Source of the DNA: Zygnema cylindricum
Lineage: Eukaryota > Streptophyta > Zygnematophyceae > Zygnematales > Zygnemataceae
Assembly: GCA_037447655.1 (NCBI GenBank)
Contig: JBBHKE010000867.1
Coordinates: 126,001-190,000 of the forward strand
Length of the DNA stretch: 64,000 bases
Direction of reading: 5' to 3'
Made by a program: the position numbers and the translations under genes
Part shown: in pieces, positions 16,470 through 56,598 of the stretch
Position numbering within the stretch: position 1 is the first letter of the stretch
How the letters are laid out: the number at the start of each line of letters is the position of its first letter
Notes under the pieces: model-generated
The model's input: only the letters and a program-made list of their open reading frames with translations
What the model was told of the DNA's origin: nothing
Database searches by the model: none

Positions 16470-18428
16470 CTGTATCGTGTACGGCGCTTAGTTTTTATAA
16501 TAATAATTATTAACTTTTATTTATTTGTTTTTATATTTTTTTGGTGTGTACTGTTTTTTAATGTGTTCATGCGGTTCCAAAAACCAGTATTCTGGCAAAA
16601 AGTGATTTGTTTTTTTATGCAAAAAGTCAAAAACACAAAACAATACGTTTCGTACTGCCCTTAAGACTTTTGCAAATCCACCGACATTTCTAACCACAGT
16701 GGTACGGCTTCTAGGACGCTTATGACATGAAGTGAGACCTCCTGTCACCAACATTTTGGCTTCACACGATTTACCTTTACTGCCAGAATCTGACAGCCTT
16801 TGTCGATTATATTGACTTGGACAGGTGAACAAAGCCAGAATGTACGGAACTGTCATAATCTCTGGATATTGACAGCTGTTCACATTTATTCGTGCAACCT
16901 ATTAACGAGTGTGAAACAGGGATATCCCTTCCGTACATATGTGACAACTGATAGCCTCTTAGCGGCTCCTTACATGAACAGTACATGTGCTATAAGAATA
17001 TGCTTCATTATAGAACCGTACATAAATACATGTACGTAGCTCGCGCCGTCCAATCGCGCGGCGTGAAGTACGCTACATTTCATAAAATCTTCTTCTCCAA
17101 TAAACGAATAAAAGTCAATAGGCCCTGTCCATAGCTGGCGCCTCGCCACGTGGATATGCAATGTCGTCAGATCCGAGTCATCATATTATTTCCTTTTGAA
17201 TACCTGACTGGACAATGGATAAAAGACGTGCTCAGCTTGAAATTGAACCAGCCCCCAGGAATCGCGATATGGTGATGCTGTCATTTGAATCGGTACAAAT
17301 TTTCGATTGCAGAAAGTTAACCTATCCGAGTGCGCAAAAGTCCTCCATCGGAGATTCGGAGTTCACGCCTCGGTTCCTCGGCATTGAAGCCCCAACAAGT
17401 TTTAGCAAACGCGTGCAAAGCATAAGGACAAAATGTCGTTGTGGTCCCCGTATGTTTGACGTTTAGCACAACGCCAAATTACGGGAAGGGGAAAAATGTT
17501 GAAAATTTCAACAAGCAAAATCTGAAGCGGCCAAGAAAACAGAGACCACTGTTCTAAAAAAATTATTGCTCGTAGGTACAACCTTAGGTACAAGCGAGAA
17601 TTTACACGTGGCTGTTTAAGAGTTGTTGCCAACTGTTTAATGTAAAGACGCCCCTTTCCCGTTACCACTACAGTACAGAAGCGCATACGACACTGGAATC
17701 GACGGTCTCGATTCCAGCTGATTATTATTATAGCCGACGGAGTCCAATAATTTGTCCTGTCTGGACAGATCCGATATTATATAATCTTTCCTGTCGCACG
17801 GCTGGGGCGTGAAGCCCCGAATTTGGTTACGTATCCTGATGACAGAGAGAGCCACGTGGACATCTTCTGACAGTAAGAGTGTAACCAGCCTGTTAAAAAG
17901 GATCCTCAGCTTTCCAATCTAGCGGGATCTTCCTAATAAATGTCAGAGTACGGGTATATGTTCCGTACAATCCACTTGTGGAACTTTTCTAGGGAAAAGG
18001 AAAAGTCGGACCTTTGGCTACGGCCGCATTCAAATCTGATTCTCGTACGGATTGACACAGTTCCGTAAAAGCTGCCACGTGGTAACAATTTTGACGGCAA
18101 TGTCAGGTTTGGAAGCTCCGGCAATGTGAATGTTTCCGCCAGATTTTTTTTTATCCGATACGTATGTCAAAAATTCAAAATGTTATTCCCAAGAAAATGT
18201 GGAGTAAATCTTTGCCGTCCGTACGACAGTATGTACCTTCTACGTGGCACGATACCAGAGGATGTAGTTTTTATATTTTCACTTGTCAGAAGGGTCTGAA
18301 AACGATTCTATTTCCAAGGTCCAAACTTTGACATGTACATGAGCCAACCAGAGTGTTACAAAAAAAAACAGTGATATTTTTTAAACTAGTAAATCAACGC
18401 CCGTTACACGGGCATGTACCGTGTCAAC
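16470..18428. other. Intergenic stretch, no gene recognised
   Basis: Base composition is more balanced than in the neighbours. Open frames such as 17215-17466 (+) and 16521-16883 (-) have no motif I recognise and no convincing splice partners. Confidence 0.5.
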
Positions 18429-18990
18429 TACATCGCCAATCGCTATTAGCGTAAAAGTTTATTTAGCATATATGAATAATTACCGCTGCTTATGCTAATT
18501 AAGAATTTGAAAATCTTGAATAAAAAACATACATTCTAATTGTTTAATAATTATAATTTGGGTCTTTGAAAAAAAAAAATATCGGTCGCAAACATGCTTA
18601 CACTAATATAGGTATTTGTACAAAATCTGACAAATCGTACACAAATCGTATGTTCACACAATCGAAACGTGGTTGCTGGACGAATATGTGCGAGCGTGAT
18701 ATTTGACAACCCGATTATATCCCCTTTTTAGAGCGCACATTCTCATGCGTCCGCGGTTACTAAAACTCATTAATTATGCTTTTTCACTTAAAAAAATACA
18801 ATTTTGTACGGTCTGACATTGTCCGTACACCACACTAATTAAATGATGAAGTACTTCTGTTTTGTACGGTACTAACAAATTAACCCTAAAGAGAGTAAAG
18901 AAAAAAATAGAATGAACTACGCTAATGGAGAAAAAAAAAAAAAACGGGGTGGAATTAGCGTACACTACGCTAATAGCGATTGGCGGTGTA
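18429..18990. mobile_element. TACACC element, family B (562 bp)
   Basis: TACATCGCCAATCGCTATTAGCG faces CGCTAATAGCGATTGGCGGTGTA. It contains the GTCCGTACACCACACTA segment also seen in the split copy at 19572-20000, so it is a useful full-length reference for that copy. Confidence 0.8.
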
Positions 18991-19355
18991 GTGTTGGGTA
19001 TCGAGGACCTATTGCCGATATTCGATATATATCGCCTTTTAGGGATCCGGTATTCAATATATCGAATCCATGTACATAGAAGCTAAATATCCGGATATTC
19101 ACGCGATTTTTTTCTTTTCTTCCCGATTTTTTTCTCAACCCCTTCCCCCCCCCCACTGTGGCGCTCGCTCAGTGGGGGGGGGGGGGGGGGGGGGGGGGTC
19201 CGTACGATTTTCCGCACGATTTTTGTTCTTCAGCTGTACGAACACCCATTTTTCGCGATGTATATCGCGATAATTTATGTTGGTCCCGATACGATATATT
19301 GAGGATTCTGCTCGAACGATTATCGCGATATGAATTTACCCGATACCCAACACTA
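18989..19355. mobile_element. hAT-like element (367 bp) with G-run hairpin
   Basis: TAGTGTTGGGTATCG faces CGATACCCAACACTA. The interior repeats the word ATATCG and holds a C-run/G-run hairpin at about 19145-19198 around GTGGCGCTCGCTCAGTG. It overlaps the last two bases of the preceding element. No clean 8-bp duplication is visible for this copy. Confidence 0.7.
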
Positions 19356-19375
19356 CTGTCAAGTTTATCATGCCC

Positions 19376-19570
19376 GTACCCCGGACGTACGGCAACGTCA
19401 CGTTGTGCCAGCAGTACGGCGGTCTGTACCGCTGACGCATGGCAACGTCACGTGACGCATGGCAACGTCAGTTGTGCTAGCGGTTCGGCGGTCTGTACCG
19501 CTGACGCACGGCAGCGTCACGTTGTGCCAGCGGTAAAGCGGTCCGTACTGCGGACGATCGCAAGACAACG
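19376..19570. repeat. 45-bp minisatellite, left part
   Basis: About four units of a ~45-bp repeat containing GGCAACGTCACGTTGTGCCAGCGG-type sequence and a GTACxGCGGTCTGTACCG segment. It is continued at 27021-27440 and is interrupted by the TACACC element. Confidence 0.8.
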
Positions 19571-20679
19571 TTACACCGCGAATCGTTAATAGTGTCAAAG
19601 TTTAAATAGGGTTGAAGGTAATTTACTGTAATTGATGCTAATTAAGATTTTTTTTTTTTTTTAAAATGGTGTATTTTAATTTCGGCTTAATGCTAATTTG
19701 GGAAAAACAGAAATTAAATATTCTCCGTACGATTATATACATTAACATATGTATTCGTACAAATATTAGAAATCGTACGCCGTCGTGAAATTTATTTTTC
19801 CGTACATGTCAGACTAATTTACTTGTCAGACTAATTCCGTTTTTTGAGTGCACGTTCCTATGCTTGCGCATCTGATTCAATTCATTTTTTGGAAAATTTT
19901 CACTTTAAAAGGTACATTAATGTACAGCATGACATCGACCGTACACCACACTATTTAGATCTTATTCTACTTTCATTTCTTACGCTATTCAATACGGTAT
20001 AATGCTCCGCGAGGAGAATCCGCGGCCGGTACAGGTCGAAACGAGGAGACTCGCGGAGGGTCGAGGAGAGTAACGCCGGCCGTAGGATAACCTCGCGGAG
20101 ACTCCCGCGGATGCCGGTTCGACACATTTCGAATTGGCCCGCGAAGACGTCACCGGGCCAGGTATACCTGTCTTAGCTGGCGGCGTACGACGTCTCGCGG
20201 GAGGACGCAAACGGATAAATAGGCTCTTTCGCGGCGGGCGATGTTTAAGCTCAAGTAAAACAAAAATTAATAATAACCAACGCCGCAAGTAAAACAAAAA
20301 ATAACAAAAACCAACGGACGAAGGCGTCCCAAAAAAATAAAATAAAAATTAGCACGTGCTCCCCATTGCCGCTACGTTACCATTACGCCTATATCGTCGA
20401 TCTCCTCGATACGTTGCCACTCAAAATAGAGTAGTTAATCACTCAATTTGTTGCTGGCTGATCGGGTGGTCCTTAGCGGCCGTAAGGCTGTTTTAATTAA
20501 TTAATATTTTGGTCGCCAATATATTTTTAATGCTACTCAATTAATATATTTTTATAATTACGGAATATTAATGCATTAATCGTAATATAATACAACATTT
20601 ATATATAATACATCACAAATGTAAAAATATATACATTGGCTATCCGTTTAGATCTTGGACAAACAACATTCATAACAAA

Positions 20680-21575
20680 AAAAAACCAAATAAACAATGA
20701 GAATAGTTAGTCGTTGCATTTATTTTGTTTTATAATATCACAAAACGAAAACAAGAACAAATTTTACCCCCACAATTGATGCTATCGTTTTTGCTATTTT
20801 ACAATGTCTGAAACCTATTAAGATTGACAAACACAACGACTACATTTTTAATCGACCATAATAGAGAAAATGTATTTGGTTTGTGTTAAGTTCTAGTTTT
20901 TTATACATAAAACAAAAACATTAACTAAACCTTTTTGATCTAACGTAATTGTTGATAAAAAAAATGAAATATCCGATTAAGTATATGACAAAAGGCATTT
21001 ATAAAAAAAAAAACAAATAAACGATAATAATATTTAGCCGTTGCTTTTATTTTCTCTCCCACGATCGATGTTATGATTTTTGTATGTTACAATGTTTGAA
21101 ACCTATTAAATTTGACAAAAAAACGACTTCATTTTTTATCGACCATAATAGAGAAATTGTATCTTGTTTGTGTTACGTGATAGTCTGTTGTATACACCAA
21201 ATACACTAGCTAAAACTTTTTGATCTAACGTAATTGACAATACAAAAAATGAAATATCCGATTAGATATTTGACAAAAGACATTTATAAAAAAAAAAACC
21301 AAATAAGGGATGAGAGCTCTTAGTCGTTGCTTTTGTTTCGATTTGTAATATCAAAAAACGAAAAATATAACGAATTTTACCCCCACGATCGATGTTATCA
21401 TTTTTCTATCTTACAATGTTTCAAATCTATTAAATTTGATAAACACAAGGACTACATTTTTAATCGACGATGATAAATAAACTATATTTGGTTTGTGTTG
21501 AGTCATAGTTTGTTATATAAACCAAAACACATTAACTATTTTTTTTTAGCATAACGTAATTGTTGATAAAAATAA
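20680..21575. repeat. Three ~300-bp tandem repeats inside the Crypton
   Basis: The phrase CAAATAA(A/G)...TTAGTCGTTGC recurs at about 20688, 21013 and 21299. Each unit also contains TTTACCCCCACxATTGATG or TCCCACGATCGATG, then TTTTTATCGACCATAATAGAG, TTTTTGATCTAACGTAATTG and AAATATCCGATTA. It is non-coding and lies downstream of the recombinase gene. Confidence 0.8.
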
Positions 21576-21602
21576 TGAAAATAAAATCATATACATAAAT
21601 AA

Positions 21603-21605
<3 letters not shown>

Positions 21606-21678
<73 letters not shown>
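21606..21678. repeat. (TG)n microsatellite
   Basis: About 36 uninterrupted TG dinucleotides ending in TGCG. Confidence 0.95.
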
Positions 21679-21681
<3 letters not shown>

Positions 21682-22077
21682 TATCCAACTTAATGATGAA
21701 AACACATAGGGCAGCAAATATTAAATAATTTATTTTGTGAATACTAACTATAGTGAACATTTTGTGAAATACAATACAAAAAACATTAACTTCGACAACA
21801 TTAGAGATTACACGTCTTTTTTTATCAAATAATTTTTTTTATCACATAAAAAAACAAGCTATGCAATTTTAGGGTTTGTACAAAATAAAATAAAAAAACA
21901 AATAAAATATAAACATGTAATGGGCAGAAAAATAATAAAACTATAAGAAAACTTATTACGCGAGTTTCAATTTCTAAAAAAATAAGTTTAAATAAACATT
22001 ATAAGTTTCTACAAAGTTTCGAAAGCTACAAAAAACAAATTTATAACAGGTGCCAAAAAAGCCCCACAAACTTTAAT

Positions 22078-25000
22078 TTAGTTTTTTTTGTTTTCAGTCG
22101 CTAATCTCTTTGATATGTCGCGCAAACTCCATTTGTTCACGAATTGGCGATCTTGCAACCTGTCCAATGCCGTACTTAATGTTACCTCATTTTCTTTTGC
22201 TATTCTACCAACTTCTACCAAGATAACATTCCAATTATAAAACGTCCGATATTCTCCTTTCCTCCAACTAGTTCCACTTGATTCCAATTTCGCGATGGAA
22301 GGAAGTCCACCTATGCCATCGTGGTAGGCTTTCCACACATCTTTGACCGTGTGTAGTCGAGCTCCAATTTGTGTCATTAAAGAAACTTGATTTAAGTTTT
22401 CTTGCGATAGAACAGGACGTGGAAATTTTTCAGTTGTCCTTGTCGTTTCCTCAAGGGTTTCATGTTCTTCGTCTTCACTTCGAGGAAGATCGCGTTCAGG
22501 AGTCCCAATTCCCTTAGCTGATTCATTTTCTGATGATCTATTTTGATTTTCACATGGTTGTGTTCCATGCAACGGATCTCCATGACCGTTCATCATGTGC
22601 ATAATGCGGGTTAACCTGTCATCTATATTACAAATTTTCTCATTCAAGCTTGAAAGTGTCTCTTTTACATAGGACATTTCCTCTCCCATGTAATCGATTT
22701 TTCTTCCACATGTCTCACTCCACATGAAAAGCGAATCAACAGATTTTCCCACTTGTGAAATTGTGATCGGCACATTTGCTTCGGCATCAGCAATTGAAGC
22801 CCACATGTCTGATGCTTCATGACACGTTTTTTTGACTTCGTCTTTGAACGATGACCACAAACGAGATTCGAACAATTTGTGATTGAAGATAGGAAGATCA
22901 GGAAATAAATCCTGGAAAAAAACATGGTCCTGTAAAAACACACTTTTGAGCCATAACATGGTGTGAAGGAAATTTTGTGCGCTTAAATCTCTTTCAGATT
23001 TGGAAGCTCGAGCATTTCTCTGCACAAAAAAACATTTGTATGTTTTAATAGAAGAATAATTCATTAAGTATAAAACGAAAACCAAAAAAATAATACATTA
23101 AATATATATAAAAAAAATGTATATATATATATATATATATATTTATGAAATAAATATAAAAAAAATGTGATAGAAAGAGAAAAAAATAAAAAAATAAAAA
23201 GAGATTGAGTGGGAAAAAAAAAAAAAAAAAAAAAAAAAAACAAATTACCCAAAAAACATATAAAAAACAACATAAAAACAGGAAAACAATTGAAAAAATA
23301 CAAATACAATTGAAAAGACAAAAAAAATGAAAATAAACAAAAAACAACAAAAAAAATTCAAAATAAGTGATACCAGAAAAATAATAGAATAATAAAAAAA
23401 AATGCGACAAACATAAAACACCAAAGTTTACTTAACTAAAAAATTAATGATATAAATGGTGAGAGTTTTTATAAACATACCGTTGGCAGCTCAACATATG
23501 CCGTTTCGACCCACGGCCAAAACATAGCACAAAGAGTAGCAGGGGGTTTCACTCTGGAACGAGGTAGAAAATACTTTCTGGTGTTGTTTTCGTGTCCAGA
23601 AGCTTGTAGTAGAATGTCCGTTGGCAAATCCGTGACATATGAGTATGAAAAGTGGTCGGATGTCCAACGTCCCATCACTTTGATGGCTTCTCGATCAGCA
23701 CTGAAATATTTACCATAAAAGAAATCAAAAATTTGGAAAATTAGAACATAGATAACAAAACTTTATTATTTCAAATGAATGCATGATAAAAATCAAATGG
23801 TAAGTTTACGAAAACCCACCCTCCTGTCGCCAACATCGTTGCCCCTTGACCACGTCCGGCATGGGTTTTATGAGACAAGGAAATATTTTTGGTTTGGAAT
23901 GTTTTTTTTATATACTGGAACTGTGTATTATAGCAAAGAGGTTGCATAAACGGTGTTTCTTTTCCTTTTTCGTCTTTCGCTAAAACTCTCCCTTCCGTGA
24001 AAGGTTCACCGTACCAGGTTTCTTTCGTCGAAAAATTGGGAATTGCATTTTTATTTGTAGCTAATTCCCACCTCCAAAAAAACTGTTGGGCCACAGCACC
24101 TACCGGACAAACAAGAAAGTCTAAGTGACGCATGCATCCGATAAATTCCGCACGACCATTCTGCGGTTAAAAAATACCATAAAAAAAAAGAAAAAAAATT
24201 AGTAAAATTTGTTTTTGGGTTATGCACAAAACATTACAAAATACACATTTCGTTAAAGTTTCAATTTTATACATTACTTACCACATTAGTTTTCCCATTT
24301 CTTGTAACCATCGCCAAAACATAACCCTTGTCCGGCCCAAGATAAGGAAGATCATACGAAAAAACATCCGCTAACTGAGCATTTCTCGAATCATCGCCTC
24401 GACTGAGACACGCATGGTTCATGATAAATTGACTCCTACAAAAAACAAAAACAAAACATCAAAGAGAAAAAAAAATGGCAATGTTACAAATATAATGAGA
24501 GTTTTATTTGAAAAAATTATACCCTTTCTAAAAAAAAACAAAAAATGCATCACAAAAAAAATAAACAAAACAACACACACAAAAAAAATGACAATGTTAC
24601 AAACATAATTCGAGCTTTATTTAAATAGAATGTATATTTTATCCCAAAAAAAAAAATTGCACATAATTGTCGTCTCTGCGTTAAATAGACTTTGGAGTTA
24701 ACTTCTAAAAACTTTTTGCATCTCGAAAAAACATATTAAAAAAAATGTAATATAAAGTCAAAAATTAAAATCTAAACCCTAAAATAACAAAATTGGATAA
24801 GAAACTCAAATAAAAATGCACCCTTTAATAATAAAGTGTTAAGTAAAAAACAACATGAATCTAGAAAATGAAATGTAAAATTTAGTATTTTTATCGATAC
24901 ATACCTCACTTGAATGCTGGTGTATGGTTCCATCCCCAACTTTTTTTCTTTGTGCTTTCCTTCGGCCAACTCCAACCAAAATGTTGAAAACCCTTTGTAA

Positions 25001-25536
25001 TCTTCGAGAGAATACGCTTCTCGTATGCCTTCTTGACGGTCTTCATGGTTATTTTTTTTAAAATTTGATGTATTTTTTTTGGACTCTTGTAAAAGTTTTT
25101 GGATGATATTGTTATCTCTAAGATTTTCACCCCCTCCTCCTTTTATGGCTAATTGCGTTTTATACGAGTCTTGGAGTCCTTTCACCCATTGTATGAGTGT
25201 GGCATAACTTTTATTTTTGTTATTCTCTAATAGTCCAATAACCCCATCAGGTGTAATAGCTACATTTGGGTGCCCTTGTGCACTCCAAAATTTTTCATAC
25301 TGATTTAAACCTACTTGATAAGCTTTTCCTGTGTTTGGGTTACGGTGTTTTAATGTATCTTTGATGATCCGTGCTCTATCTGTTTCACTATATTGTGGGG
25401 GGTATTTTATTCCTACATTGTTATCGTCATCTTCTAAATGAACAATTTTTTGACAGGTTCCAAATGTGAGCCCTGAGACAATACTAGGTAAAATTTGAAA
25501 AATTCCCTTACGCCAAGAAAACATTGAAAATAACAA
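22078..25536 (-). CDS. Crypton tyrosine recombinase with NDC10_II-like and GCR1_C-like domains
   Basis: The exons I assign are 25536-24905, 24435-24282, 24160-23820, 23700-23481 and 23019-22078. All introns are GT-AG, all phases match, and no stop interrupts about 762 aa. Residues ~45-205 resemble the helical core-binding region. The catalytic part follows: SRGDDSRNAQLADVF (~222-236, first Arg), GKTNVNGRAEF, KTHAGRGQG (His362 and Arg365, the HxxR pair), and GRWTSDHFSYSYVTDLP with candidate nucleophile Tyr397. Next comes KYFLPRSRVKPPATL, then PWVE, the pattern typical of NDC10_II proteins. Residues ~505-580 may form a coiled coil. Residues ~673-742 (TVKDVWKAYHDGIGGLPSI, then SWRKGEYRTFYNW) match GCR1_C, a DNA-binding domain of fungal and oomycete Cryptons. 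Expected role: strand cleavage and rejoining for movement of the element in the nucleus. An alternative start at Met 5 is possible. Confidence 0.85.
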
Positions 25537-25701
25537 TTTTATGAAGAAGAAAAAAAAATAATCATAATAAAAATAAAATAATAAGAAAAACCTTTAAATT
25601 TTTTAATTTAAAATAAAAGTGTTGAAAGAAAAACAAGTAAATGAATAAAAAAGATAAAATAAAAAAATTAAAATAAAAACATAAAACGAAAACTCAAAAC
25701 T

Positions 25702-25855
25702 GTAGGATTTAGGGTTAGGCTGTAAGATTTAGGGTTAGGCTGTAGGATTTAGGGTTAGGCTGTAGGATTTAGGGTTACGCTGTAGGATTTACGGTTAGGT
25801 TGTAAGCTGTAGGATTTAGGGTTAGGCTGTAGGATTTAAGGTTAAACTGATTTAG
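25702..25855. repeat. 20-bp minisatellite GTAGGATTTAGGGTTAGGCT
   Basis: About seven units with small changes. Each contains the plant telomere heptamer TTTAGGG. It lies just upstream of the recombinase gene, inside the element. Confidence 0.9.
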
Positions 25856-26021
25856 CTGTTGATTTTAACACTAAATACGTTAAAACGTAAATCAAAACCT
25901 ATGGTTAAAGCGCACGTAATAAATAGATTAACGTACGTCTATATTTACTTACGTTTCAAAACAATACAATTTGAAACGTAATCATTTGCGATACATACTG
26001 AAAAAAATTGGTTCACATTTG

Positions 26022-26190
26022 AGCGTACGAAATTCGCGCGGAGGGTTAATGTACATTGGAGAGTACGGAGCGTACGGAATTCGCGCGGAGAAGTAATTTA
26101 CATTGGAGAGTACGGAATTCAAGTTTACCACGTACGGACATCCGCGAGGAGAGTTAATCTACATTGAAAAGTACGGAATTTCACTTTCGA
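26022..26190. repeat. ~55-bp direct repeats in the Crypton right flank
   Basis: Three units contain CGTACGGAATTCGCGCGGAGA, TAATxTACATTGGAGAGTACGG and variants. They may be recombinase-binding sites; this is inference. Confidence 0.7.
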
Positions 26191-26465
26191 CCGTAAGGAA
26201 TATGATAAATAACGTCACATTTTCGAGTAAGTAAATAGTACACGCGAATTTGTCTTGTACTCTTTAAAATTTGAATATACCTTCTCCGCTTTCAAAATAC
26301 CTTCTCCTCCTTCCAAAATACTACGTCAATGATGACTGTAGGATATTTTTACACTCTCCGCGTATGATCCTCATTTCACGTAGCGTAGTAAAAAAAAATT
26401 CGCCTGCGGCGCCAAAGGACGACAATATGACTGTACTTTTTTGTTTTGTTTGTAATTTCATACGT

Positions 26466-26660
26466 AAAGTGTTCTCACGTGACGCGCGGCTAATTTTATT
26501 TTAGTTTTTAATGGCAAAGTTCAAGTGTTCTCACGTGACGCGCGACTCAGTTGTTCGACGGATTAAATGGTATTGTTTAAAGTGTGAACGTTTCTAATAT
26601 TATGTAGATATTTTGAGTCGCGAACGCGATTTACATGTTCTCATGCGACGCGCGTGACGC
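26466..26660. repeat. GTTCTCACGTGACGCGCG repeats, subterminal in the Crypton
   Basis: Three occurrences at about 26470, 26525 and 26636 (the last as GTTCTCATGCGACGCGCG), spaced 55 and 110 bp. Confidence 0.75.
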
Positions 26661-27020
26661 TATTTGTGGTGAATGCTCTATATGAGAACGCAGTAAGTAT
26701 GAACACTTTGTTTTTTTTTTGTTTTTTTTGTCCATCTGACCTAATCAGCGAGGAGACTCCCAAAAAAAAATTCTCCGCGCTTCGCGCGATTTTTCTTGTC
26801 CTTATCAATAACTGGGAGGGATTTACATTGCCCGGGCAAAATCCTCCTCGAAGGTCTCCGCCGCCCGCCAAATGTGCCCTCCCCCCAATGTTGAATACCA
26901 CTACGGTATCTTAATTAACGTGAAGGAAAAAATAAAATCATGTATCCTATTTAGGAAAAAAACTCAAAATTTTAGGAACCCAAATTAGATTTATATACTC
27001 TAATAACGATTCGCGGTGTA

Positions 27021-27440
27021 CATTTTGCCAGCGGCACGGCGGCCTTCCACGGTTGGCAACGTTACATTGTGCCAACCGTACGCGGTCTGCACAGCGATGG
27101 TTGGCAATAATACATCACGCCATCCGTACGGCGGTCTGCACACGACGCACGTCAACGTTAAATTACGCCATCCGTACGGCGTTCTGCATAGCGACGAACG
27201 ACAGCGTTAAATTACGCCATCCGCACGGCGGTCTGCACACCGACGGGTGGCAATGTTAGGTTTCGCCAATCGTACGACGCTATGCACACCGACGGTTGGC
27301 AACGTTAGAGTATGCCAACCGTACGGTGGTCTGCACACCGACAATTGGCAATGTAAGATTATGCCATCCGTACGGCGGTACGGGCGGGGTACCGTTACAT
27401 TGTGCCAGCGGTACGGCGGTCTGTACTGCGGACGGACGGA
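27021..27440. repeat. 45-bp minisatellite, right part
   Basis: About nine diverged units of the same repeat as 19376-19570, e.g. GGCAACGTTA, then GCCAxCCGTACGG, then CGGTCTGCACACCGACG. Open frames on both strands here are repeat artefacts. Confidence 0.85.
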
Positions 27441-27972
27441 AAAAATCGATGACAGACACACATCCTACCGCCTATATAAGGCTTCGCAGAGGGGCGAACA
27501 ACGTTCCCTTATTTATATACTGATATAATCGTATTAGAAGCTGGTTTGAAGTATGAACACAGAAATCCAGAAAAAAAAATGAATTTAATATGAGTAGAAA
27601 GTTGAAGCGAATATCAACACATCAATTTCGTCGCAGTGTATTGACCTCAAAAACTAGCCGGCTAACAGTAGCCGGCATTGTTATTTCAGTTTATTTTGCC
27701 CAAGCGGCCGACAAAATGTGTCCGAAGGCTGGATGACTTATTACAAAAATGGTCCGGTTGGCAGTTCTGAACCAATTGAGTTTGAGAGATTTTATCCGGC
27801 GTCCAGTCCGTACATCTCTACAGCACGTGATTTTTCAAAGGAATCAGTTAATGCTCAGACAGATCTGCGTGAATTATTAATTATACGTAGGACCGTGTGT
27901 TACTTCGACACCTCTCAAGATTTGCGGTGCTATTTCAATTATTTGTGGTTATAGACTTATAGGTTTTGGTGG

Positions 27973-29215
27973 TACACCGTGAAACCGCTTATAGTGTTGA
28001 GAAATTATTAGTGTAAAGAAAAAAGAAGTGTTATTAACAGTATATTATTATATTTGGTTTCATGACCTCGAGCCAACAAAACATAAACCCTAGTTGACAC
28101 ACATAACACTATTTCGGATACACATTCCCATAGTTTAGCCGCTATAGCCCGTGTTCACATTATGGACATATGAACATGTGAGAACAGGTTCGCGCGATTC
28201 CCCCCCGTCTTTAATAGGCCTGAATGTACGGATACGTACGGAAACCATGTACGGATACGTTACTGATTTACTGGGAATCAAATCTGAGTGCGCTTTCCCG
28301 TGTCGACGCCACTCACTTTCTCGTGTCGACAAACTTTTGTTAACACTTTTTTTGTACTTTAGGGTATGGTTACATCAGACGAAAAGTGAGGTTTAATACA
28401 GAATTTTGTACTTGCCCGTACCATGCCGTACTATATTTTCGTGAGTTTCTTAAAAACAACATTACAGAAAATAAGATTACGATTCTCCAAGTATCCAGGA
28501 GAAGACATCGACCGTCCGATTACATTTTGGTCTTCATCTGCGAAGCAATCGCTCCATACGCCTCTGTATTGGTGAACCCACCTCGCCGAGGTGGGTTCAG
28601 CAATACAGAACCAGTCAAATCGCTACACCTGGACGTCAGACACGTGCGTCGATGAAATATGAAAATTTTCACACGTCCACAAAGTCACGTGCCTTCGGAC
28701 AAGGTGACCGTAAAATTTTTGCCGAAAAGAAATACGGTTTTTTCCTGAAAGTCAGCAGCGTGAAGGAGATCTCTGAGGTACATTGACGCGGTACACTTGT
28801 GAAGTACACGTACGTAATACGCAAGTACGGATTTTTATACGAAAATGGTCGGTTTCCAAATCTTTGACGATTTTATAGATTTGATCGTCGACCTACGTGG
28901 AAGCACTCAAATCAGAACACGTATATAAAAACTTGTTTACAGATGATACGCGATGTAACCGAGGCCTCTGTAATACAGAAATTTTGCTGTCCGTACTATT
29001 ACAGAGACCTCCTGATGTAACCATACCCTTAGTCAAAAACTGCAAACACTTTTAATACGGAATGACACTTTTCGGAGTGTACATTATTTAGAAATTCTCC
29101 AAATTAGTGCAATTGACGTTAATTAAGCCATACCTATGTTAACGTAAAGGAAAAAGGAGTGATATCAATTCTATTTTAGGTTCGGGGCAAATTTTAGGAG
29201 CGCGGAGATAGTATT
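27973..29215. mobile_element. TACACC element, family C, carrying a TTA element
   Basis: It starts TACACCGTGAAACCGCTTATAG. Without the nested element at 28362-29028 it is about 570 bp. Its body (CACATTCCCATAG, then GTGCGCTTTCCCGTGTCGAC, then TATTTTAGGTTCGGGG) recurs near 45890-46400, 48550-48910 and 50530-51130. The right terminus is eroded, so the end coordinate is approximate. Confidence 0.6.
28362..29028. mobile_element. GGGT-ended TTA element 3 (PIF/Harbinger-like, 667 bp)
   Basis: GGGTATGGTTACATCAG faces CTGATGTAACCATACCC, flanked by TTA at 28359-28361 and 29029-29031. It contains a hairpin, GAACCCACCTCG/CGAGGTGGGTTC, at about 28573-28600. It is non-coding. A truncated inverted relative lies at 47831-48185. 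Confidence 0.8.
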
Positions 29216-29540
29216 ATTAAAGAAAAATAATTTTTTAATTCATAGTGAGAAGCAAATTTAATGCTTTAAAATAATACAGAAGTTGTTGACAAACTAAATG
29301 CAAACTAAATACCCGTTCATATTGAATATAGTTTTTCAACAATATGTTTAGTACAACTTTGTCTCAATCAACGTGATCACTAACGATAACAAAACTTTGA
29401 AAAAACCTAGAGACCAATATTATGTGTGCGTTCATGAAACACGATTTTCAAAATTTCCAATGAATGAATAAAATGATTTCAGTGGAAAGTACATCAGCCT
29501 TGTACTTTATTTTGTACTTATGTACATACTCATTGTAGGG

Positions 29541-29608
29541 CTTTTTATAGTTTTTTTAGGGTTTTTTAGGGTTTTCTAGGGTTTTCTAGGGTTTTTTAGG
29601 GTTTTTTA
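29541..29608. repeat. Telomere-like 11-bp repeat (TTTTTTAGGG / TTTTCTAGGG)
   Basis: Six units of TAGGGTTTTTTAGGG-like sequence. The spacing differs from a true TTTAGGG telomere array. Confidence 0.85.
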
Positions 29609-30147
29609 GTTACGCAACACTGTTCCAAATCCAACAGTGCTTTCAACTACTCTTCTAGGTACAAACGTCCCTTAAATTATTACATTGGTCACATCATAGT
29701 TCTAAACAAGAAGGTTAATCCATACCTAACTTAAATTCTATGTCACTAAAGGATTATCCATTAATTTGTTGTTCATAGCACTATAATCTCCTTTACTTTG
29801 TTGTTGAATGAAATTCAGTCCCACAATACATGGTGAATTAATGGTTTAGTGGATCTTGACCATCAATATAGAGCTACTTTGTAAATCTCTATGAGGGTCA
29901 AAAGCACTATTTCAACATCGTTGTTTTTTAAACCTTTACCATAAAAGATCGATCATTTTAGTGTTTTTTTCTAACGCATTAGTTAAGTAGTTAAAAATCA
30001 AAAACATTAGTTCCGATTCGTAACTGGTCCGCACTAGGCATCATGCTCATTTGTGCATGAGTCTGAGTATGTTGTCACGATTTACTTTGTTATTGTGAAA
30101 ATAGACGATATTCAATGTATCAAAGGCGCCAAAACTTAAACTTTGGA

Positions 30148-52181: not shown

Positions 52182-55100
52182 ATGGCGGTCTTAGAGATTT
52201 TTCTTATATTAGTGACTGTCACAACAGCTATCCTTTTATCTCCAGAGCCTCTTGTAGTTCGGTTTCCTGGAACAGCTCAACAGCTCTATTTGACATCAGC
52301 GCCAGAATTTGCAAAACAGGCAATTTATGGATTAGCAGTTGGAGAGCATGAAGGTAATTGGAACATAAAGACGTTTCCCTCCCTCTCCCTCCCACTCGTT
52401 TTTTTTTTTTCCTGTTATTCTTGCTGTTAAAACTAGCTGATGCTATAAGTTGCAAGCATAAATGATGCTTAAATAGGAAATTTTGATGTTAGTTTTTGTG
52501 TGAGGAGAGATGAATCATAATTTGAGTCACCGTTTTTGACTTAGTTTTTATATTTTGAAAAGAAAAATAGTGTGAAGGAGACTTAATAATTTTTCAGGCT
52601 GATGAATATTACCAGGTAAGATAAAGGCCAGGGAAGACATAAGCTCATCCAAAATTTTGGTTGGATTAATTAGGATTCGAGGTATTTTTATCCACAATTC
52701 TTATTTGTGGTAAATATAGATGTAAAAGCTTATGTCTCGACAGCATGTCACAAGACACTTTAAGAGAATATTCACTTGGTCATCATCTTGCTGACAAAGT
52801 CAAAACCGAATGAATTGTTATGGTTAAAGTTATTTTCTGAAAGGCTATTTCTAAGATGCGCAAAAACTCTTATAGAATTTCTGTTCTGTTTTCGTTTCTA
52901 TTAAGCCTTGGATAAAACTGTTCCAATGCATTATTGGCTTGGAAGAGATGAACACTATTTCTTAACCTGCCACAAATATTATTATTAACTGTAAAAGAGT
53001 CTCCTACTAATGATTTCTTAGCGGTCATTATTCAAGCGGAAACAGTTTTCTCAAAACTAAAGCAGTCTTCATACTAATTATTTCTTGAACGCAAATAGCG
53101 ATTCACGGAGTACTGTTTCTGTTCTGTTCTTGTTTCTGACCTGGCATGGATAGAATTGTTCCAATGCAGTGGCAAAATAATTATTTCTTAATCATTCCTG
53201 TATCGGTTTCTGTTCTGTTCCTGTTGCTGTTCCTGTTTCTGTTTATGGGGTAAAAATGTTCGAATGCAATACTGGCTTGGAAGAGACAACAATCTTTCCC
53301 ATCCCTGGCATGAAAAGATTTGGTATTATTAACACTAAAACAGTCCTGAAACTATTTGTCTCTTGTTATTTCTCATCAGGTAAGGATAAAGCTGTTCCAA
53401 TGCAATACTGGCTTGGAAGGGACAAAAAAACTCTCGCATCCCCTGCCATGCGTGCAAAAGAAGTAACAAATGAAGCAACAGAAGAGTTTTCTCAGCTTGT
53501 ATCCGAAGCCATTCGTGCAGCTCATAAAAGAGGTCTCGCAGGAAAGGAAAAAATCATAGAGTTGGAGGAAGCTCTTTGGGCAAAGGCGACCGAAAGCGCG
53601 AGAGGTACAAAGGAGAAGGCAAAGGAAGTGATTGGAACAGTTGAAGACGCAGGAGCTCGTGTCGCTCAGAAAGTAATACTCGGTCCCACGCTCGCGTCTC
53701 TTGAGATGATAAGCTCAACAGCGCAAGGGGCAAAGAGGAAAGCAAGTAATATGGTGGAATCAGTCAAGGAAAATGTGAGACATGGTGTGGAATCTGTGGA
53801 GGAAGCAGGACGGAGTGTTCGAGAAAGTGTTTCAGGAGTTATTGGAGCAGTTAATGACAAAGTAACAAAAACTGGTCGAAGAGCTTGGGAGACTGTTGCC
53901 CGTGTGGGTGAGACAGCTTGGGAACTTGAAGAAGATGCAAGGCATAGGGCTATTGAAACAGGACATGCATTTTGGTACGGAATTTGCAAAAGTGAAGATA
54001 TGGCGAAACTTGCTTTTTGTCGAGCCGAAGAAAGTACGAGAAGAGCTGCCGCGACAGTTTTTCAAAGAGGGGCCGCCGTATTACGTTGTGTGAAGAAAGA
54101 AGCTTTACATCCTGACGAAAGGAAAGCACTTGCAGGTAAAGGAATCTAAAGGCCTTCAATGCTTACCCGTTCTTTTTTTTTCCTTGTATCTGTCTGAGTA
54201 GCAATGGGATAAAGGATCTATTTTTTTGTTGTTCCAGGTAAAGGAAATTAGAGGATATTAATGCTTACTCCTTTTTTGCGCTGTAGGGAAATGAAATTGG
54301 AGGCTCTAAACGCTTACCCCTTCTTTTTTCGTGCTGTGTTTAACTGAATAGCAATTATTTTGTTGTTACCCTGAATGGCTCTCCAAAGGCAGGCATTATT
54401 CTTTTCGTTTTTGCTGTTTTATGGAGTTTCTCAAGACAGTCTTAGGTTTCAAGGCGCCCCAGTCTGTTGATGCTTTTGTAGCTTGTTTTGGATAATTTTT
54501 TATTTTTTTTGGTAATTTGTAATTCGTATGAACTCACCAAAAAGTGCCATTCTAGTATGTAGATATAACAAGTTTGTTTCAGTTATCTATCTGGAGCCTG
54601 TGAAGTTCAGGTTTTCCAGATTTTTTGCTACTGATCAAATGCCTCAACTATTTGCATGGGAAATGACGTTTATAGATTTCAAAACATGTACAGTTATCAC
54701 TACCTGTCAAATTTCTACTCATCAAATCGCCTACTTATCAAATACGTCAACTTTTTGCAGGGAAAGTTGAGTGGTGTCAGACCACCGCGGAGGATTATGC
54801 CTCGAAAGCTCAGGAAAATGCGGGTGATTTTTTTCAAGTACTGGAGGATTCAGTCAGCGATGCGAGCAAGAAACATTCGGAGAAATTTAAGGATTCTTCT
54901 GCAAGGGAATTTTTTGATTCTTCAAGGGGATTTTTGGAGGAATCAGTAGAAACTGGAGAAAAAGCTGCAGATACAGCAAAAGGGACTTTTGAGAGGGCTA
55001 GGTCAGCTGCAAAAGAAGGTGGAGAAAAGATTAGTGAACTGAACACCCATGGAGTTGCTGATTGGACAAAGGGGAAATTATCTCAGGCGGGTGAGACAGT

Positions 55101-56598
55101 TAGGGATAAACTAGGAGACGCAGTTGATTCAGGGAAAGAGGCTGTAAAGAGGAGAGTTCCTCCAACAGACATGGAAGAAGGGGATACCGTGTTTGACAAG
55201 GTTCATAGAGGCGGAATGGCGGGAAAGGAGACTGCAGAAAAAGCACAAGATGCGGTTGGGAAAGCTGCCCAAAAAATTGAAATTGGAAATTTTGATGAGA
55301 CAAGAAATGTCAAGGAAGCTGGTCAGAGGGCGTATGAAAGAACTAAGAATACTATGGATGGTTTTTCCGAGAAAGGAAGGGAGACTCTGGGTGAGACCAA
55401 AAGCGTACTGGAAGGTGGTCAAAATGCGTACGAAAAGACTAAGGATACTGTGGGTGGTTTTTTCGAAAAAGGAAAGGAGACATTGGGTGAAGTTCCAGAC
55501 AAGTTTACTACTGCAGTTGAATCGAAGTACCAAGTATGGGAAGAGCAGTTTGAGCGAATGCCAGAAGACATACAAAGATTGTTTCAGGAAGGCTGGAGAA
55601 TCGTTGATGTGGCTCAAAACGAGGGCAGTGGCCCAAGAACGTGGAATAGAGATATCACACACTCCTTTTTTTGGGTTGGTTTTCAACGATTTTTACATTT
55701 AGGATGTTTTTCTGTAGCTTTTGCGGCGTCTCTCTTTTTAGTGGTTCGGAGCTCATCCGGACAAGCGAATCTAGTTCAAACGGAGTTAAATTCTATGATT
55801 TCAAGATCATCTGTTTTTTCCTCTGGATTTTGCCTTGGTACGATGATCCAGACTTGGGCTCTTCGACCGGAATTGACCAATCGTTGGCAAATATATGCTC
55901 TAGCCTTGGCTTTTATTGGATCTATCATAAATTTTTTGGTGCTTTTACCGAGAATCAAGAAGGTGGGCACCGAACTTAGTTTCCTTTTTTTTCTTTTTGT
56001 TCTGCAATTTAACTCTAAATTGTTCTACTTCCATGCACGTAGTTTTCATTTTGCTTTTGCTTTGGTTCGACTTTGTTTCCGCTTCTTCTCCATTTATATT
56101 TCATTGGCTTTATACAAGGTAGGCTGTCAATGTTTGTTGTATTAAAACACACGTTTTTGGTTTGATCCCTCTCCCTCTCCCTCTCCCTTTCTGTTTTGTC
56201 TTTCTTGGTTCTTGTTCCAGGTTTTGGTAGAAAGGGATGAACTTGAACAGAAAGAACCGGAGGGACAGAGAACATCTGAATCCGTTTCAACGGCCAGAGA
56301 ACGGAACGGTCTTCATGGAACCAGTACGGGAAAACCTTCTTGGAATCCTTTTTCCACAGACTCTACGGATACTCCATTATGGCGCGATAACCCTACGGCC
56401 GATTTGCCCGAATGCGATGTTCAAAAAAACAGAGGGATGGAAATGGAGCTCCCTAAATCTCCTCTTCGGGTAGTCAGGAAATATTGGTCAGAGGAGGAAC
56501 TCAAGCGTTTGGAGAGAACCTCGAAAATCGCAAATTTCTTGTCTTTAGTGGGGCTGATGTGGCATTGGTGGCATCTGGCTTGTCGGCTTGTTCTTTGA
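52182..56598 (+). CDS. LEA-repeat / TMEM205 (DUF4149)-like membrane protein, 4 exons
   Basis: The exons I assign are 52182-52353, 53380-54135, 54761-55962 and 56221-56598, with matching phases and GT-AG borders, giving 835 aa. The N-terminus is a hydrophobic segment (MAVLEIFLILVTVTTAILL). Residues ~60-600 are long amphipathic LEA-like helices rich in Ala, Lys and Glu. They include a ~33-residue tandem repeat (GQRAYERTKNTMDGFSEKG, then GGQNAYEKTKDTVGGFFEKG). Residues ~612-710 have three membrane segments (~619-639, 658-677, 686-705) with FLHLGCFSVAFAASLFL and LVLLPRIKK, the TMEM205 pattern. The end (TSKIANFLSLVGLMWHWWHL) is the fourth segment. The architecture matches Arabidopsis At1g72100 (LEA domain-containing), which is shorter (~480 aa). 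The likely role is membrane-associated desiccation or stress protection. The start is the first in-frame ATG of exon 1. Confidence 0.8.
52906..53450 (+). repeat. Partial copies of the exon 2 start inside intron 1
   Basis: The phrase GTTCCAATGCAATACTGGCTTGG of exon 2 (53393 onward) recurs in diverged form at about 52920, 53158 and 53266. The last copy extends to CCATCCCTGGCATG. TTCTGTTCTG-rich pyrimidine sequence precedes the copies at 52920, 53158 and 53266, like a splice acceptor tract. Confidence 0.8.
54129..54335 (+). repeat. Copies of the exon 2 donor region inside intron 2
   Basis: The border GCAGGTAAAGGAATCTAAAGG, then AATGCTTACCC, recurs as CCAGGTAAAGGAAATTAGAGG (about 54233) and TGTAGGGAAATGAAATTGGAGG (about 54282), each followed by CGCTTACC or TGCTTACT. 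Confidence 0.75.

Follow-up and report, generated by a model that had tools for sequence, protein, structure and literature searches.

Cryptons belong to the small number of eukaryotic DNA transposons with a tyrosine recombinase, and introns are known from their fungal members. Crypton Cn1 of Cryptococcus, reportedly described by Goodwin et al. in 2003, is said to be about 4 kb long and to combine a central recombinase and a C-terminal DNA-binding block with several introns and short direct repeats. The element analysed here has a layout like that of Cn1, from which it differs in host and in length (6.9 kb against about 4 kb). According to Kojima and Jurka 2011 (PMC3212892), CryptonF elements have a tyrosine recombinase with GCR1_C, no terminal inverted repeats (TIRs) and 6-bp terminal direct repeats in most cases, all in common with our element; a circle intermediate has been proposed for them. 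Their described hosts are fungi and oomycetes, while the host here is a streptophyte. The distribution of Cryptons is reported there as patchy.

What we describe is very probably a complete, CryptonF-like DNA transposon from a streptophyte genome, with a predicted spliced tyrosine recombinase that carries GCR1_C. It lies in the window, i.e., the whole stretch of 64,000 nucleotides that was analysed.

The recombinase gene and its copies

The preliminary description placed an intact Crypton gene at 22078-25536, with five exons joined in frame over about 762 aa. The description is confirmed in that the exons do join in frame, and the predicted protein is 758 aa long: the gene is on the minus strand, window 25524-22078, and its coding sequence is 2277 bp with the stop. 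The interval describes the gene but not the element, which spans 19995-26909 (6.9 kb). All exons are on the minus strand. Exon 1 (24905..25524, 620 bp) encodes the N-terminal region, aa 1-207, in which Pfam finds nothing significant (Phage_int_SAM_1 reaches only E 0.17). Exon 2 (24282..24435, 154 bp) bears the likely box I arginine, R219, and exon 3 (23820..24160, 341 bp) bears H358-A-G-R361. W384, the likely nucleophile Y393 and the KYFLPRSRVKPP motif (aa 414-425) are in exon 4 (23481..23700, 220 bp), while exon 5 (22078..23019, 942 bp) holds the end of NDC10_II, GCR1_C and the stop. The introns measure 469, 121, 119 and 461 bp, and all four are bounded by GT..AG.

Both domains expected from the first reading of the DNA are significant in Pfam on the spliced protein and above the curated cut-offs, NDC10_II at aa 205-497 (E = 1.2e-38, 133.4 bits, cut-off 26.3) and GCR1_C at aa 666-735 (E = 2.2e-9, 37.9 bits, cut-off 23). 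That reading would have fallen had neither domain been significant, and it passes this check. Phage_integrase matches weakly (E = 0.033, aa 331-394). From motif spacing we take R219, H358-x-x-R361, W384 and Y393 to be the tyrosine-recombinase residues. All five are identical in the two uninterrupted copies of the gene and in three environmental relatives, hence in five proteins. Among the 18 copies that could be scored, the window's included (L011 and L014 gave no row), Y393 is kept in all and Y391 in 16; three have Tyr in place of H358 and two lack R219, in broken copies only.

The environmental relatives are distant, at 26-29% identity. A single-sequence query retrieved none among 6372 candidates, an alignment of the two uninterrupted copies retrieved three among 7740, and a five-sequence query the same three among 7996. 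Two of them have both domains and one, which is shorter, has NDC10_II only. They score 220-250 bits against NDC10_II, compared with 133 bits for the window protein, i.e., the streptophyte protein is more divergent from the Pfam model. No chain in the PDB was matched by sequence, phages gave no match for P0001, and no relative was found among 110 stretches from viral contigs. A single weak match in PHROGs (E 0.00043, aa 616-691) is to an unnamed family. The AlphaFold models of exon 1 (pLDDT 37.7) and exon 5 (40.6) were too poor to use.

For the comparison of copies 20 places of about 10 kb each were fetched, the window's own among them. The most informative is L013 on contig C312, which has the same five exons and introns, is uninterrupted and encodes 773 aa, 86.9% identical to the window protein over 757 positions. 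Between these two copies dN is 0.064 and dS 0.344, giving a dN/dS of about 0.19 (Nei-Gojobori), and on this comparison the spliced protein is under selection. Exons align better than introns in the more distant copies, for example in L013 with 84.6-95.5% in exons and 74.3-87.3% in introns; in the closest copies, L009 and L017, the difference is slight.

Read in the frame of the window gene, the third codon position collects the most differences in 18 of the 19 other copies. In L013 the three positions differ at 47, 49 and 146 of 759 sites each (6.2, 6.5 and 19.2%), and in L014, where the comparison covers exon 5 only with two differences, they are tied. Judged across the aligned copies, the excess is more than chance. 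The closely similar L009, L017 and L026 show little of it, as would be expected if those copies were dead.

Eighteen of the 20 copies could be judged by alignment; the two left out are L014, whose exons 1-4 are N, and L011, which is cut off by the end of its contig. Uninterrupted are the window copy and L013 only, while 16 are broken, so most copies are dead. For the earlier wording "apparently functional" the support consists of an open gene and selection; a demonstrated jump is not part of it.

The family is much larger than the copies compared. A gene-length DNA search of the assembly gave at least 73 matches, with the best 40 of its 265 candidates scored. Allowing three mismatches or fewer, the left-end pattern occurs at 93 places and the right-end pattern at 80, and a reversed-pattern control at none. 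The window's own right end is absent from the 80, so these counts are lower bounds. Left and right ends could be paired on one contig and strand in 33 cases, of which 16 span 6.4-8.2 kb (three of these have one common right end on C2151). Six pairs, on C2092, C2577, C944, C1750, C1728 and C493, span 3.4-3.7 kb and contain no gene match among the matches listed (best 40 of 265 candidates scored); they probably form a class of non-autonomous derivatives. Two partial copies lie near each other on contig C130 (L021). On C2151 (L038, 264197-264493) three left ends occur inside 300 bp, perhaps as a tandem array of ends.

Ends, empty sites and a proposed integration mechanism

The limits of the element, 19995..26909 on the minus strand (about 6.9 kb), follow from ends that copies with different flanks have in common, and from empty sites. 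In the direction of the gene the left end is at 26909 and the right end at 19995. BLAST of window 17000-30000 against the copies gives similarity that ends at about 26910 and about 19995, with several copies interrupted internally or truncated and yielding one end only. The left terminal direct repeat, ATACCG (26904..26909), is followed by TAGTGG, and the left end reads GTAGTGGTATTAGACATTGGGG; GTAGTGG is found in 18 of 21 aligned rows, the exceptions being L037, L028 and L010. The core before it is variable and exactly TACCG in only 10 of the 21, i.e., the target rule is loose. The right repeat, also ATACCG (19995..20000), was placed by the edge alignment of the copies. The right end reads ..GCAGTATACC; ATACC stands in 18 of the 19 rows, the next base being G in 14 and A in four. 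The aligned edges of the copies show no terminal inverted repeats of the element's own.

Between these ends the gene is flanked, on the minus strand, by a 5' non-coding arm (25525..26903), in which CTGTAGGATTTAGGGTTAGG is repeated in tandem at 25700-25844, within the element, and by a 3' non-coding arm (20001..22077). The latter has a (TG)n run and, at 20641-21580, direct repeats that are imperfect and about 300 bp long. In nine other ORFs of the element no domain exceeds its cut-off; two Pfam matches there are at chance level and far below it. No DDE domain was found in these nine, and no reverse transcriptase match in them or in the Crypton gene.

As first proposed, the Crypton is nested in a host TIR element flanked by one minisatellite. 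The TIR element covers 19572..27020, with arms at 19572-19595 and 26997-27020 (24 bp, 92% complementary), and copies of the minisatellite lie at 19385-19537 and 27049-27415. Joining the flanks of the Crypton at the core gives a 220-bp sequence that matches without interruption at 40 of 40 scored places (87-96% identity; 2084 candidates). In six empty copies that were fetched and inspected the target is AATTAAGGTACCGTATT, one of them with A for the last G of the core. They thus have GTACC(G/A) at the position of the left repeat, one base different from the filled ATACCG. The filled left junction, AATTAAGATACCGTAGTGG, follows the target up to AAG and then continues with the element-like ATACCG, and the changed base could come from the element or be a variation of the target copy itself.

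The copy L016 sits in another abundant host repeat, and for its joined flanks, too, all 40 of the 40 scored places (2015 candidates) match through the junction. Eight of its empty sites were fetched and have GTACCG or GCACCG once, while a core is present on both sides of the inserted copy. As read from these alignments, the empty sites of the two copies are exact, with no target duplication beyond the shared core.

Some targets recur. Six of 25 left flanks, from 22 loci, are alike: those of L016, L035, L037 and L041 end at the identical base of the repeat entered by L016, and those of L044 and L045 within a few bases of the same site. The last two are separated by 1 kb and may go back to a single local duplication. 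On the other side of this insertion site lie the right flanks of L016, L020 and L025 (3 of 20). Entry at one base by several copies suggests that this repeat (L049-L056; 40 of its 2015 candidate places scored) is a favoured target. The left edges of L028, L043 and L047 adjoin sequence that resembles the termini of the TIR family, which may thus have been entered at more than one place. A separate element of 566 bp lies at window 18427-18992; its inverted ends, 27 bp long and 96% complementary, resemble those of the TIR element that the Crypton entered.

Fusions of two ends were also found, as four of 12 candidate rows. On C990 a right end runs straight into a left end, in two exact fusions with one core between and a third that is degraded; C944 and C265 have one fusion each, preceded by right-end sequence. 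Seven other rows are ordinary left ends (C295, C2183, C719 twice, C899, C1970 and C1758), and the row on C39 is the left end of L017. Head-to-tail fusions would be the expected trace of a circle that integrates beside an existing copy; after their formation they could also have been multiplied by unequal exchange.

A circle intermediate is the model proposed for Cryptons in PMC3212892. For the present element we suggest that the recombinase would bind the ends, with GCR1_C as the proposed end-binding part, and join them, releasing an excised circle with one ATACCG core. This core would recombine with a (G/A)TACCG-like chromosomal site, Y393 forming the DNA-protein bond with the assistance of R219, H358, R361 and W384, and integration would leave one core per junction and no further duplication. 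The natural empty sites, the shared target repeats and the end fusions make the circle model directly testable, with a defined 6-bp core and a defined recombinase.

Host genome, rival readings and divergent relatives

The assembly comprises 352,776,454 bp in 2689 contigs and has 88 matches to chlorophyll a/b-binding proteins. One such protein, L058, scores 413-418 bits with the chains 5xnl_3, 7oui_2 and 8z9d_33 and 378 bits with the next chain. Set apart from these are two long chains of another entry, 9vfj_2 (500 bits over two stretches) and 9vfj_11 (391 bits). The chain 7oui_2 bears the name "Chlorophyll a-b binding protein 3", and we take the three chains 5xnl_3, 7oui_2 and 8z9d_33 to be LHCB3, which is not known outside the streptophytes. 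The light-harvesting (LHC) genes, one of them of LHCB3 type, support a streptophyte host, in agreement with the plant lineage named at the outset. The marker SAM_LFY had no match in the assembly, nor in the controls, and is thus uninformative. Contigs C519 and C2590 show dense light-harvesting gene matches on both strands. At window 53181-56142 there are two long open frames, presumably with LEA-like repeats, of which the second matches DUF4149 weakly and below the cut-off (E 0.00058); apart from this match, the five host ORFs of the window gave nothing in Pfam.

Could the element belong to another organism, or move by other means? That fungal or oomycete DNA was assembled together with the alga would fit the hosts from which NDC10_II/GCR1_C Cryptons are described in PMC3212892, but it is scarcely credible here. 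Contig C1116 (252,544 bp) has LHC genes (87907-114770) as well as parts of a Crypton copy (186654-192307), and C152 and C1602 each have an LHC match and a Crypton right end. Moreover, the repeats that were entered are abundant in the assembly, with about 2000 candidate places each (40 scored), and hold the empty sites. The early judgement that contamination is unlikely is thus upheld, on stronger grounds than those first given. It is likewise highly improbable that a TIR (DDE) transposon carries the recombinase gene as cargo or has become fused with it and moves it by the TIRs, as in the fungal composite MarCry. It is true that inverted arms of 24 bp stand on both sides of the window copy, that fusions of this type exist according to PMC3212892, and that the left edges of L028, L043 and L047 adjoin sequence resembling TIR-family ends. 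However, the similarity of the other copies to the window stops at the Crypton ends, short of the arms, TIR elements without the Crypton gene represent the empty form, and the nine other ORFs lack a DDE domain.

A different matter is whether the family still moves. It could be a fossil in which the gene is open by chance in two copies, a reading that the 16 broken copies of 18 speak for and that we hold to be somewhat improbable, though to be taken seriously. Against it stand the low dN/dS between the two open copies and the copy L014, on another contig, of which a 3.25-kb stretch is 98.5% identical to the window and which has no similarity to it in the 200 bp past the right end.

The assembly also contains divergent relatives. 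On the minus strand of contig C623 (L001) there is an NDC10_II relative with the end of exon 2 at about 2850 and the start of exon 3 at about 1764, identical to the window protein at 24 of 38 aligned residues in exon 2 and at 41 of 95 in exon 3. The position of its intron 2 is that of the window gene. It has Phe for the catalytic His and is without Tyr at the catalytic place, so it is possibly a domesticated gene or an old dead copy. A second Crypton-like family (L068, L069 and L070 on C249, C750 and C376) is 36-37% identical over 62-76 aa; it has kept GRW and has a Tyr nine residues after the Trp. With at least three divergent lineages (window, C249-type and C623), two of which share an intron position, it can be speculated that Cryptons are old in the plant lineage and that the C623 relative was domesticated in parallel to fungal Gcr1/Ndc10, a scenario that we regard as rather unlikely.

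Comparison with known elements

A literature search outside Repbase and most subscription journals found no Crypton reported from a streptophyte alga, nor is one reported in passages of PMC3212892, PMC4157794, PMC8729191, PMC5963040, PMC5753468, PMC11630846, PMC3537659, PMC3627910, PMC10722297, PMC13084152 and PMC12220804. In PMC7045718 the match is "Cryptonemiales" only. For land plants, automatic repeat tables in three papers give 535 Crypton entries in one database column (PMC8729191), Crypton-H/A labels in sour cherry and related genomes (PMC10722297) and 66 bp labelled Crypton-V in Metrosideros (PMC13084152). These labels, as given there, name other Crypton groups or none, and they count against novelty. 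What is new here is the host lineage, for which no report was found; the kind of element is already known.

Copy number does not separate the family clearly from CryptonF. It is described as very low in most hosts in PMC3212892 and as a few dozen in PMC4157794. The composite MarCry-1_FO (PMC3212892) resembles the window copy in having a Crypton gene between inverted repeats, but the TIRs in the window belong to the host repeat that was entered and do not travel with the gene. The domesticated fungal genes Gcr1 and Cbf2-Ndc10 have an NDC10_II and GCR1_C ancestry in common with the element (PMC3212892); unlike them, the window element keeps the catalytic residues and is apparently mobile.

Other groups fit less well. 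CryptonS elements are without GCR1_C and mostly have TATGG ends, whereas here GCR1_C is present and the ends are ATACCG. A DIRS or Ngaro retrotransposon is rejected by the missing reverse transcriptase match in the gene and the nine other ORFs. Starship captains are recombinases of the DUF3435 type that lie at one edge of a very large element; here no DUF3435 match was listed at E up to 1, and the element is 6.9 kb.

By its domain content, ends and insertion mode, the element behaves as a CryptonF. It combines a tyrosine recombinase domain with R-H-R-Y and a C-terminal GCR1_C, it has direct repeats of the 4- or 6-bp class at its ends in place of TIRs (the left repeat varies among copies), and the empty sites of two copies have no target duplication beyond the shared core. 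The host range of NDC10_II/GCR1_C Cryptons would thereby be widened to the plant lineage, by a multi-copy family with uninterrupted members.
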